A stretch of DNA of 64,000 bases, taken from assembly GCF_011694815.1 (NCBI RefSeq), contig NZ_CP050177.1:2531001-2595000 (forward strand), read 5' to 3'. This DNA is from Streptomyces liangshanensis. GTDB taxonomy: Bacteria > Actinomycetota > Actinomycetes > Streptomycetales > Streptomycetaceae. The notes beneath the pieces are model-generated. The model made no database searches, was not told the DNA's origin, and saw only the letters and a program-made list of their open reading frames with translations. Below are positions 13,463-61,722 of this stretch, piece by piece; within the stretch, counting starts at the first letter, position 1, and each line of letters begins with the position of its first letter. The translations under genes were made by a program, and so were the position numbers.

Positions 13463-13547
13463 TCCCGAAGAGTAGAGCGGGCTCCTGAGCCGCACCAGAC
13501 ACCCAAATCGCAGTAATCCGGAGCGCATTCGAAGAAAGCCAACCAGG

Positions 13548-13577
13548 GATATGCGCTGGTGCTATCGCCGATTGACA
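13548..13577 (+). promoter_or_regulatory. LysR-type box and -35 of the snapalysin promoter
   Basis: GATA-N11-TATC at 13548-13566 is a symmetric site of the T-N11-A class bound by LysR regulators. It ends 5 bp before TTGACA (13572-13577), the geometry of an activated promoter. I could not pick a convincing -10. Confidence 0.55.
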
Positions 13578-13652
13578 TCATCCGTCAGGAGGCGGACTCC
13601 CCGAGACTCTGCGGTACCGAACCCGTTCACCGGACGACTAGGAGCCCCCCAC

Positions 13653-14327
13653 ATGCGTCACGTCAGACACCCCAAGTCCGCTCTCTCCGCGATCGCCGGC
13701 CTCGGCCTGGCCCTCGCGACCGCGCTGGGCGCGGCACCCGCCTCCGCCGCGCCCGCCGACGCCGCCCCCACCGGCGTCCCGTCCGCGTCCTCGTACGCCG
13801 CGTACGAGGGCTCGAAGGCCGAGGCCGCCAACAACAAGGCCTTCTTCGACGCGGTCCTCAAGTCGGTCGCCGAGAAGCGCGCGGCGAACCCGGGCGCCGC
13901 CGTGGTGACCGTCGTCTACAACGCGTCGGCCGCGCCCCGCTTCCGCAGCCAGATAGCCAGCAGCGCGTCGATCTGGAACAGCGCCGTCAGCAACGTGAAG
14001 CTCCAGTCGGGCACCAACGCCGACTTCACGTACCGCGAGGGCAACGACCCGCGTGGCTCGTTCGCCAGCACCAACGGCCACGGAAGCGGCTACATCTTCC
14101 TCGACTACGCCCAGAACCAGCAGTACAACTCGACCCGCGTCACCGCGCACGAGACCGGGCACGTGCTCGGCCTCCCGGACCACTACAGCGGCCCGTGCAG
14201 CGAGCTGATGTCCGGCGGCGGGCCCGGCACGTCCTGCCAGAACGCCCAGCCGAACTCGGCCGAGCGCGCACGGGTGAACCAGCTGTGGGTGAACGGCCTC
14301 GCGGCCGCCGTGGCCAAGCTGTCCTGA
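13653..14327 (+). CDS. snpA: Snapalysin (small secreted zinc metalloprotease)
   Basis: 224-residue precursor with signal peptide ([16 protein letters not shown], hydrophobic Ala/Leu core, cleavage after ASA), a propeptide and the M7 protease domain. The zinc site is [11 protein letters not shown], the HExxHxxGxxD motif in which Asp is the third ligand. Cys pairs in [10 protein letters not shown] and PGTSCQNA likely form the disulfide. AGGAG 8 nt before the ATG at 13653. Degrades extracellular protein such as milk casein in known homologues. Confidence 0.94.
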
Positions 14328-15699: not shown

Positions 15700-16740
15700 T
15701 CAGCGCGTCCGGCGTGTCACGAACTCCGCCAGCGCCAGCAGATCGCCCGCCGCGGTGAGGTCGGGCACCGCCCGCGACAGCTGCTGTACGGCCCTGGCCA
15801 TCCGGTCGGCCGCCTGGACCTGCGCCCAGTCGCGCCCGCCGGCCCGCTCCACCGCGTCCGCCGCCCGGCGGATCGCGGCGCCGTCCATCGGCGACCGGTA
15901 CAGCTCGGCCAGCTCCTCCGCCGCCGGGGTCCCGGAGGCGAGCGCCGCGACCACCGGCAGGGACTTCTTGTGCGCGGCGAGGTCCGCGCCGGCCGGCTTG
16001 CCCGTGGTGTCGGGGTCCCCCCAGATCCCGATCAGGTCGTCGATCAGCTGGAACGCGAGGCCCGCCTCCCGCCCGAAGGCGTCCATCGCGGCGATCTCCT
16101 CGTCGTCCGCGCCCGCGTAGAGCGCCCCCAAAGCGCACGAACTGCCCAGCAGCGCGCCGGTCTTGGCCATCGCCATGGCCACGCACTCGTCCAACGAGAC
16201 CTCGTCGGGCGCCCGCTGCTCGAACGCGCAGTCCGCCTGCTGCCCCGCGCACAGCTCGATGACGCACGCGGCGAGCCGGGCCGAGGCCGCGCCCGACGCC
16301 GGATGCGGGTCCTCGGCCAGCAGCCGCAGGGCGAGGGCCATCATCGCGTCGCCCGCGATGATGGCGGCCGGGGTGCCGAAGACCGTCCAGGCGGTGGCAC
16401 GGTGCCGCCGGGTGGGGTCCTCGTCGATGACGTCGTCGTGCAGCAGCGTGAAGTTGTGGGCCAGTTCGACGGCGACGGCCGCCCGGACGGCGTGCAGCGG
16501 TTCCCCGCCGAGCGCCCGGGCCGAGGCGAGCACGAGGGCGGGCCTGATGGCCTTGCCCGCCCGCCCCGAGGCCGGGGTGCCGTCGGCGTGCTCCCAGCCG
16601 AAGTGGTACATCGCGACACGGCGTATGGAGTCCGGCAACGACTCGACCGTGGAACGCAGTTCGGGTTGGACGGTGGTGCGGGTGCGGTCCAGGAGGGCTA
16701 CCGCCTCGTGGCCCTCGGTGGCGGCATCCGTGCTGGTCAT
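15700..16740 (-). CDS. Polyprenyl diphosphate synthase, probable encapsulin cargo
   Basis: Trans-isoprenyl diphosphate synthase of 346 residues, which condenses isopentenyl diphosphate with an allylic diphosphate. Both aspartate-rich motifs are intact: DDVIDED at residues 102-108 and DDLIGIWGD at 234-242, with GKAIRP at 63-68. The position two residues before the first motif (LLHDD) lacks a bulky aromatic, so a C20 or longer product is possible. It lies 157 bp downstream of a family 2B encapsulin shell gene in the same direction, a pairing known from genome surveys in which the synthase is the enclosed cargo. Alternative in-frame GTG starts upstream would add about 4-9 residues. Confidence 0.88.
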   Translation of the reverse strand: MTSTDAATEGHEAVALLDRTRTTVQPELRSTVESLPDSIRRVAMYHFGWEHADGTPASGRAGKAIRPALVLASARALGGEPLHAVRAAVAVELAHNFTLLHDDVIDEDPTRRHRATAWTVFGTPAAIIAGDAMMALALRLLAEDPHPASGAASARLAACVIELCAGQQADCAFEQRAPDEVSLDECVAMAMAKTGALLGSSCALGALYAGADDEEIAAMDAFGREAGLAFQLIDDLIGIWGDPDTTGKPAGADLAAHKKSLPVVAALASGTPAAEELAELYRSPMDGAAIRRAADAVERAGGRDWAQVQAADRMARAVQQLSRAVPDLTAAGDLLALAEFVTRRTR

Positions 16741-16897
16741 GCTCGTGGTCACTTCCTCTGTCACTGTGTCGGACCAGGGGTGCGGGTGCCGGGAGGGGAC
16801 CGGGGGAGGGTGGTCCGTGTGCCGGGCTCGTACGCGCCCGGCGCACGGACCGCCCCTCCCCCGGGCCGGCGCGGGGCCGGCCCCTCCGGCCGGCGGA

Positions 16898-18304
16898 TCA
16901 GTTCCGGCGGCCCACTTCCACGTTCTCCAGCACGCCCACCGCGTCCGGCACCAGGATCGCCGCCGAGTAGTACGCGGTGACCAGGTAGGAGATGATCGCC
17001 TGCTCGTCGATGCCCATGAAGCGGACGGACAGGCTCGGCTCGATCTCGTCCGGGATGCCGCTCTGCTGGAGCCCGATGACTCCCTGCTCGGCCTCGCCCG
17101 TACGCATGCAGAGGATCGACGTCGTCCGCGCGTCCGAGATCGGGATCTTGTTGGACGGGAAGATCGGCACCCCCCGCCACGCCGGCACGTGGTGCCCCCC
17201 GATCTCCACGGTGTCCGGGTAGATCCCGCGCCTGTTGCACTCACGCCCGAAGGCCGCGATGGCCCGCGGATGCGCCAGGAAGAGCTTCGAGCCGCGGCGG
17301 CGCGAGAGCAGCTCGTCCATGTCGTCGGGGCTCGGCCCGCCGTCGTGGGGCTGGAGCCGCTGGCCGTAGTCGGCGTTGTGCAGCAGCCCGAACTCGCGGT
17401 TGTTGATCAGCTCGAACTCCTGGCGCTCGCGCAGCGCCTCGACCGTCAGCCGCAACTGCTGCTCGGTCTGGTTCATCGGCTGGTTGTACAGGTCCGCGAC
17501 CCGGCTGTGCACCTTCAGCACGGTCTGGGCCACGCTCAGTTCGTACTCCCGCGGCGCCCCCTCGTAGTCCACGAACGTGTGCGGGACGAAGGCCTCCCCG
17601 ACGTGTCCCGCGGACAGGTCGATCTCGGCCTCGCCGTACTTGTTGGTCCGCTGGTGCGGCACGCTCGCCAGCGCGTCCAGGTGCTCGCGCAGCGACGTGG
17701 CCCGCTCGGCCAGGTTCAGGACGTCCGCCCTGGTCAGAACCAGCACCGTGCAGGCCGTGACCGCACGCACGCTGTAGTCCCAGGTGGCCTCCCCGTCCAC
17801 CAGGGCCGCTTCGCCGAAGTACGCCCCGTCCGCGAGCGTGTCCAGCACCGCGTCGTCCCCGTAGGGCCCCTCGCCGAACTTCTCCGCCCGGCCGTGGGCC
17901 AGCAGGTAGACCCGGTCCGTCGCGTCCCCGGACGCCACCAGCACCTGCCCCGCTGCGAACTCCCGCTGCTCGCAGCGCGCCGCCAGCTCGGCGAGCGCCG
18001 CCTCGTCCTCGTACCCCCGCAGCGCGGGCAGTTCGCCCAGCTCCGCGGGGATGACCTCGACCCGGTCCCCGGTCTGCACGAACGTCACACGCCCGTCCCC
18101 GACCGCGTAAGTGAGCCGACGGTTCACCCGGTAGGTGCCGCCCTGAACCTGCACCCACGGAAGCATCCGCAGCAGCCACCGCGAGGTGATCTCCTGCATC
18201 TGCGGTACCGACTTGGTGGTGGTCGCCAAGTTGCGCGCCGCCGACGTTCCCAGACTCTGCTGGGGCGGCGCCTGCGACTCGCGGACCTCGTCACCAACCG
18301 ACAT
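16898..18304 (-). CDS. Family 2B encapsulin shell protein with cyclic-nucleotide-binding-like domain
   Basis: 468-residue HK97-fold protein expected to self-assemble into a protein nanocompartment. N-terminal arm and first shell segment (residues 1-90, including [22 protein letters not shown]), an inserted Crp-like domain at about 90-205 ([39 protein letters not shown]), then the shell core ([73 protein letters not shown]). The Arg that grips the cyclic phosphate in Crp is not seen: the motif reads [15 protein letters not shown] 5 nt before the ATG. First gene of a unit with the prenyl synthase. Confidence 0.9.
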
Positions 18305-59317: not shown

Positions 59318-59323
59318 TTTCAG

Positions 59324-59397
59324 TAGCGGGGACAGGATTTGAACCTGCGACCTCTGGGTTATGAGCCCAGCGAGCTACCGAGCTGCTCCACCCCGCG
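59324..59397 (-). tRNA. Initiator tRNA-fMet (CAU), copy 1
   Basis: 74 nt without encoded CCA. Anticodon CAU in CTCATAA. The three G:C pairs of the anticodon stem (GGG/CCC), the unpaired first base (C1 with U72) and the T-loop GGTTCAAATCC are initiator features. Identical to the copy at 61649-61722. Confidence 0.97.
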
Positions 59398-61640: not shown

Positions 61641-61648
61641 ACTTCGCG

Positions 61649-61722
61649 TAGCGGGGACAGGATTTGAACCTGCGACCTCTGGGTTATGAGCCCAGCGAGC
61701 TACCGAGCTGCTCCACCCCGCG
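61649..61722 (-). tRNA. Initiator tRNA-fMet (CAU), copy 2
   Basis: Base-for-base copy of the gene at 59324-59397, with the same initiator features and no encoded CCA. The flanks differ, and each copy has its own terminator. Confidence 0.97.

Follow-up and report, generated by a model that had tools for sequence, protein, structure and literature searches.

What does the shell encoded at this locus enclose, and which terpenoid does it help to make? In the window (the whole stretch of 64,000 nucleotides of Streptomyces liangshanensis DNA analysed here), a gene for a Family 2B encapsulin shell is followed by one for a polyprenyl diphosphate synthase, with 157 bases between the two genes, see Table 1. 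Both are found at 15700–18304, where a preliminary description of this DNA had placed them. We suggest that the locus is a genuine Family 2B polyprenyl-transferase operon in which the synthase is most likely a shell-associated putative cargo feeding terpenoid synthesis, a reading to which we give a probability of roughly 55%. The synthase, associated with the shell as its cargo, would produce a prenyl diphosphate that then enters terpenoid synthesis. The locus is an already described, common and curated kind of nanocompartment operon. What is added here is a testable proposal on which terpene cyclase a shell of this known type serves.

Table 1. Positions of the shell gene, the synthase gene and their parts, and of the neighbouring gene, in the window.
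Feature	Position	Strand	Basis
Family 2B encapsulin shell protein, 468 aa	16898..18304	-	NF041163, PF19307/PF00027 and 9bhu match; ATG at 18304, last stop base 16898
Shell N-arm, residues 17-37	18194..18256	-	resembles the motif put forward for loading geosmin synthases
CRP-like insertion domain, residues 114-201	17702..17965	-	PF00027, 66.7 bits; Trp at the position of the CRP phosphate-binding Arg
Shell domain, SrpI-like, HK97 type, residues 216-466	16907..17659	-	PF19307, 457.2 bits
Polyprenyl diphosphate synthase, 346 aa, putative cargo	15700..16740	-	NF041169; AlphaFold model; ATG at 16740
First Asp-rich motif, DDVID	16423..16437	-	sequence; three Asp invariant in 19/19 aligned
Second Asp-rich motif, DDLIG, not DDxxD	16027..16041	-	D, D and G invariant in 19/19 aligned
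DUF6304 protein, 146 aa	15197..15637	-	PF19822, 130.8 bits; 62 bases past the synthase stop

The identity of the shell is clear. In the NCBIfam scan the protein scores 773.6 bits against encap_f2b (NF041163), which has a cut-off of 400. From the N to the C terminus it consists of an N-arm, a CRP-like domain and the SrpI-like shell domain. Since the span of PF00027 (cNMP-binding) lies between the N-arm and the PF19307 region in the Pfam scan, the CRP-like domain is an insertion within the shell protein. The closest solved chain is 9bhu (E 6e-199, residues 10-465), titled as the Family 2B encapsulin shell of Streptomyces griseus. The preliminary description had proposed an HK97-type shell of Family 2B with an inserted Crp-like domain, and had made this depend on an alignment to HK97/encapsulin family 2B profiles; both the architecture and the alignment are borne out by these matches. 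The structure prediction of the monomer, which it had also proposed, did yield a model, but at a pLDDT of 55.8 the model is unusable as evidence for the fold, so the identity of the shell rests on sequence. A profile search finds NF041163 over its cut-off in at least 118 of the 121 genomes of the window's genus, and the genome of S. liangshanensis holds one 2B shell over this cut-off. By analogy with the solved relatives 9bhu, 9bix and 9bje, the protein most likely self-assembles into a T=1 icosahedral particle, in which the CRP-like domains would sit on the outside, over the two-fold pores.

The CRP-like domain deserves a separate look. From the alignment register, we take one shell position to correspond to the phosphate-binding Arg of E. 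coli CRP. At this position Trp is found in 20 of the 22 aligned shells (this one included) and Arg in none, and in this shell the Arg-Ser of the CRP phosphate-binding cassette is replaced by Trp-Asp. According to the accessible text of PMC12407261, a 2B insertion domain does not bind cyclic nucleotides and is so placed that it could control the flux across the two-fold pore. This statement and the Trp together make a role as a pore lid likelier than control by cAMP; domains without the residues that hold the cyclic phosphate would then cover the pore or bind another ligand instead of sensing cAMP. Substrate entry had been called largely unexplored, but it is less open than this, as a 2B shell of S. 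lydicus is reported to have two-fold pores measuring 14 by 60 angstroms, over part of which the CRP-like domains lie. The domain also invites the reading that the shell gene encodes a cyclic-nucleotide-controlled transcription regulator. CRP-type models match residues 101-210 in the NCBIfam scan, and two 2B shells carry the PDB name Crp/Fnr family transcriptional regulator. However, the Pfam and NCBIfam scans of the shell contain no helix-turn-helix match, solved encapsulin shells match the protein over nearly its whole length, and the CRP Arg is missing in all 22 shells. A regulator, to which we attach next to no probability, is rejected on these three grounds.

The partner gene encodes a recognizable member of the cargo family. 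The synthase scores 497.1 bits in the NCBIfam scan, over the cut-off of 450, against NF041169, a model named family 2 encapsulin nanocompartment cargo protein polyprenyl transferase, and 194.9 bits against PF00348 in the Pfam scan; in both scans the query carried a single additional codon ahead of the ATG. The earlier claim of an intact synthase with both Asp-rich motifs stands for the family match and for DDVID, but the second motif departs from the expected DDxxD. Yet both Asp and the Gly of DDLIG are invariant among the aligned relatives, so the synthase is probably intact. A shell-free paralogue in the same genome reads DDLLG here, i.e., the Gly is common to both enzymes, and judged by these sequences DDLIG is normal as the second motif of this synthase family. 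The genome holds three prenyl synthases in all; the shell-free paralogue reaches 411.6 bits to NF041169, below the cut-off.

The AlphaFold model of the synthase has a pLDDT of 91.6. Its best match in the PDB is 3nf2, a polyprenyl synthetase of S. coelicolor (TM 0.90, 44% identity), followed by archaeal GGPP synthases. By eye, however, 3nf2 looks nearer to the shell-free paralogue than to the synthase of the window. After the cargo family itself, the best sequence model is the GGPP synthase IdsB, with 360.2 bits, below its cut-off of 475. A single Phe stands five residues before DDVID, and we take it as a product-length rule that a Phe at this distance ahead of the first Asp motif gives C15-C20. 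From this rule and from IdsB as the next-best model, the enzyme, a trans-prenyl diphosphate synthase, is predicted to make a C15-C20 product.

Whether the synthase is cargo can be approached through its pairing with the shell and through its N-terminus. The profile search finds NF041169 over the cut-off in at least 91 of the 121 genomes of the genus, and 89 of the 91 synthase matches have a listed shell match 50–471 bp upstream on the same strand, where the gaps run between profile matches and not gene ends, and part of the listed shell matches was used. The two exceptions are a synthase at a contig end (G112) and one without a listed shell nearby (G076). As for the N-terminus, the accessible text of PMC8346489 (Andreas and Giessen 2021) ascribes to the polyprenyl transferase cargo a disordered N-terminal domain of 50–100 residues, and states that no targeting motif was found. 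Such a loading domain is absent from the synthase of the window, as only residues 1–9 of the AlphaFold model are disordered (below pLDDT 50). The aligned relatives have a similar short start wherever their start is covered (19 sequences). The usual loading argument is therefore inapplicable, and it is only from the conserved pairing that we infer encapsulation of the synthase.

The short start may not be general in the genus. The synthase clade of this window begins MTSTDAATEGHEA, in other members of the genus the start could lie some 40 residues upstream, and the shell-free paralogue could start about 20 residues further upstream than the synthase, with a possible longer N-terminal extension. 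When 63 synthase frames (duplicates and paralogues included) were scanned for a targeting motif with a profile of the shell N-arm, the six best windows all lay inside the enzyme and none at its start. Both this and the short, ordered N-terminus would fit a synthase that is merely a co-expressed cytosolic partner, with a shell that encloses something else or stays empty until another cargo is made; the statement in the accessible text of PMC8346489 that such synthases have no motif points the same way. However, the adjacency is kept in nearly all synthase-bearing genomes of the genus and also in other genera, and the possible upstream starts of some relatives speak against a purely cytosolic enzyme as well. 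We consider the cytosolic partner unlikely and retain the synthase as putative cargo.

Among solved systems, the S. griseus shell 9bhu is alike over the range given above, N-arm and CRP-like domain included. This shell is presumably the compartment of 2-methylisoborneol synthase (EshA), and we take its cargo to be the terpene cyclase encoded beside it, whereas the neighbour here is a prenyl synthase. The two-component 2B shell of S. lydicus (9bix, 9bje) is related over residues 15-465; however, according to the accessible text of PMC12407261 that system has two shell proteins and is a putative xylulose-kinase system, while there is one shell here. That prenyl transferases are a cargo class of Family 2B, as the preliminary description noted, agrees with the curated NCBI families NF041163 and NF041169 and with the accessible parts of two papers. 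PMC8346489 counts 900 such operons, of which 888 are actinobacterial, as well as 165 systems with both a terpene cyclase and a polyprenyl transferase, and PMC8049743 names the polyprenyl diphosphate synthase gene as the most frequent neighbour of 2b shells. The locus shares with the systems of PMC8346489 the same adjacent shell and partner families and the mostly actinobacterial occurrence, but differs from the 50–100 disordered residues described there in its short, nearly all ordered N-terminus. Past the synthase, the DUF6304 gene is likely on the same transcript and may be a member of the operon; a DUF6304 match occurs in 11 of 30 synthase loci, its own included, in sequences with only about 1.5 kb of flank.

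Which terpene cyclase could then use the prenyl diphosphate? The genome has two PF19086 terpene-cyclase genes, and the genome-wide PF19086 search places none in or near the window. Thus, the earlier statement that no terpene cyclase lies next to the operon is upheld for PF19086 cyclases. That the product has to leave the shell, as was further claimed, does not follow of necessity, though. One of the two cyclases, a two-domain geosmin synthase at 4114299–4116662, unlinked and 1.57 Mb from the shell, carries a proposed loading motif twice, and relatives hold clusters of shells, synthase and geosmin synthase, described below. The accessible text of PMC8346489 gives for shell-associated geosmin synthases the consensus GPTGLGTSAAR in linker and tail, proposed as a targeting sequence. 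The S. liangshanensis enzyme has one LGTAA copy at each of these places, as PVGLGTAAS in its linker and as SGLGTAATR close to the C-terminus, but both have drifted from this consensus. In the other PF19086 cyclase of the genome, the loading motif is absent.

From this, it can tentatively be speculated that the common 2B shell linked to a synthase in Streptomyces serves as a geosmin compartment, for which a cyclase encoded elsewhere is recruited by N-arm-mimicking peptides that occupy the docking sites of the N-arms. The geosmin synthase would be the main or a second cargo, loaded in trans via LGT[SA]A peptides in linker and tail that copy the shell N-arm. These peptides would bind in the grooves that disordered N-arms leave unoccupied, and the neighbouring synthase would supply prenyl diphosphate, inside or outside the shell. 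Loading in trans is compatible with our main reading and does not exclude the synthase as cargo. According to its accessible text, the survey of PMC8346489 looked for Family 2 cargo no further than 20 reading frames away from a shell, a limit by which distant cargo would be missed. Linked systems of terpene cyclase and synthase are already known and part of that survey; the unlinked geosmin synthase is the case that is new here.

The linked arrangement is found in several genomes. G188, G451 and G302 each have a one-strand cluster of two shells together with the synthase and geosmin synthase, and G214 has a similar cluster whose contig ends within a shell. About 45 bp separate the synthase match from the geosmin synthase match in G451 and G302, and about 1.4 kb in G188 and G214. 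The intervening stretch of G188 encodes IspH (4-hydroxy-3-methylbut-2-enyl diphosphate reductase), the last enzyme of IPP/DMAPP synthesis; this locus (L167, G188:C4:33000-45000) thus carries a pair of 2B shells along with prenyl synthase, IspH and geosmin synthase, all encoded on one strand. A different order is seen at L170 (G443:C44:22500-33000), where a shell, a geosmin-synthase-like cyclase, a second shell and a synthase stand in a row. The cyclase is at 43% to the S. liangshanensis geosmin synthase, and another geosmin-synthase match lies on contig C99 of the same genome. A second PF19086 cyclase is located about 25–36 kb from the synthase-linked shell in G095:C9, G312:C31, G436:C2, G276:C1, G246:C1, G236:C4 and G087:C1. 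The preprint PMC12224551 reports, in its accessible text, encapsulins as consistently present in all myxobacterial geosmin clusters examined there.

Co-occurrence was followed in a sample of 394 genomes of the class, and a geosmin synthase is matched with E at most 1e-60 in 92 of them. Among the matches listed, a 2B-type shell at E 1e-70 is present in all 92, compared with 23 of the 302 others, and for 14 of these 23 the E-value is no better than 1e-100 to 1e-112, a range that a partial or 2A-like shell might give. Fisher tests at the level of genomes and of genera give very small p-values, which are inflated by linkage and shared descent. The shell matches are only partial in three of the 92 genomes: in G214 and G404 there are contig ends or two contigs, and the shell of G138 reaches the cut-off only when its neighbours in the frame are added. 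At that last locus (L184, G138:C12), the geosmin synthase lies beside a shell in a 365-aa frame with a 2B match mainly in the C-terminal half (362 bits, or 421 once the neighbours are included), which may be without a CRP-like domain. In 38 of the 92 genomes a geosmin synthase and a shell are no more than 10 kb apart; in 54 the geosmin synthase is unlinked, in some of them through contig ends, which can make linked genes look unlinked. The NF041169 search covered 88 of the 92 (it left out G174, G373, G429 and G452, none of them among the 19 genomes used next). The linkage classes count these four as lacking the synthase and were based on synthase matches over the cut-off and two below it near a shell; by eye, no other listed synthase match is within 4 kb of a shell.

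The loading motif was evaluated in 19 genomes in which every shell is synthase-linked and the geosmin synthase is elsewhere. GT[SAG][AS] is present in 18 of these 19 geosmin synthases and in one of 29 other terpene cyclases, where geosmin synthases are about twice the control length and the frame was picked by length only for four of the 29 controls. The 18 comprise 11 with the full LGT[SAG][AS], five with only a PGTSAAD-like form in the linker and two (G476, G266) that are not clean copies. The geosmin synthase of G276 reads PGASAAD. Over the whole set, linker anchors could be located in 77 of the 92 geosmin synthases, and the motif core occurs in 57 of these 77 linkers (shuffle mean 3.9, maximum 10) and in 55 of the 92 tails (shuffle mean 2.3, maximum 9). 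A relaxed pattern is found in the tail or in residues 300–500 of 88 out of 90, a count without shuffle control. In 25 of the 90, it is missing from the last 60 residues, and 20 of the 25 belong to the genus of the window. Two of the 25 (G203, G412) have the pattern further in by eye and one (G476) has a variant. Going by these tails, it looks as if loading were being lost in this genus, which speaks against the reading.

A first regular expression had scored eight shell-linked geosmin synthases as motif-free; on inspection, seven have GPTGLGTAT or GPTGLGST towards the C-terminus and the eighth (G452) is a fragment. Exact pattern searches in DNA were uninformative, with no GLGT-type places against one in the reversed control, and five of LGT type (one being the shell itself) against ten.

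The comparison with the shell N-arm provides a possible reason for the motif. S17, L18, A22, A23 and R24 are invariant in the N-arms of the 22 aligned shells, and of 69 distinct N-arm strings, 52 contain LGTxAAR and 65 a relaxed form of it. The motif proposed for loading geosmin synthases resembles the shell N-arm: linkers such as LGTSAARVLESIVVTAPQ (G397) match it over about 18 residues. Scored with a profile built from 36 distinct N-arms, 20 of the 92 geosmin synthases exceed every one of 460 shuffled proteins; beyond LGTSAAR, too, the profile columns beat permutations (37 distinct windows, z 5.6, kinship uncorrected). The linker of S. liangshanensis, LGTAASAYLKTLTAG, scores -7.9, above the shuffled 99th percentile (-9.4) and below the shuffled maximum (-2.3).

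Taken on their own merits, the one-strand clusters, the IspH gene between synthase and geosmin synthase, the presence of 2B-type shells wherever a geosmin synthase is matched, the motif in unlinked geosmin synthases and its rarity in other cyclases, the N-arm profile, and the single 2B shell over cut-off in a genome whose geosmin synthase has motif copies at the two consensus places all argue for loading in trans. However, these copies are drifted and their best window stays below the shuffled maximum, tails of the genus often lack the pattern, some motif hits of the test set are linker-only or unclean forms, and the co-occurrence is partly linkage and shared descent. Furthermore, geosmin synthase needs FPP, while the synthase looks more like a GGPP synthase. 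We therefore regard loading of geosmin synthase in trans as possible but somewhat doubtful, and hold the wider proposal of a geosmin compartment no more firmly than as a tentative one; the synthase as shell-associated cargo remains the reading that we prefer.

A literature search found no paper on loading of geosmin synthase in trans or on N-arm mimicry, and no published experiment on a synthase-type 2B shell or test of its cargo; as most subscription papers were outside its reach, these blanks are weak evidence of novelty. Should loading in trans prove true, an odorant widespread in Streptomyces would have its site of synthesis in a shell of viral origin whose parts are encoded far apart on the chromosome, and N-arm mimicry, if true, would give a simple and testable loading rule for Family 2B.

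Elsewhere in the window, a gene for snapalysin, an M7 metalloprotease, lies at 13551–14327 on the plus strand, with a divergent LysR-type regulator at 13528–12470. Two tRNA-Met (CAT) genes on the minus strand, at 59323–59397 and 61648–61722, are about 2.3 kb apart.
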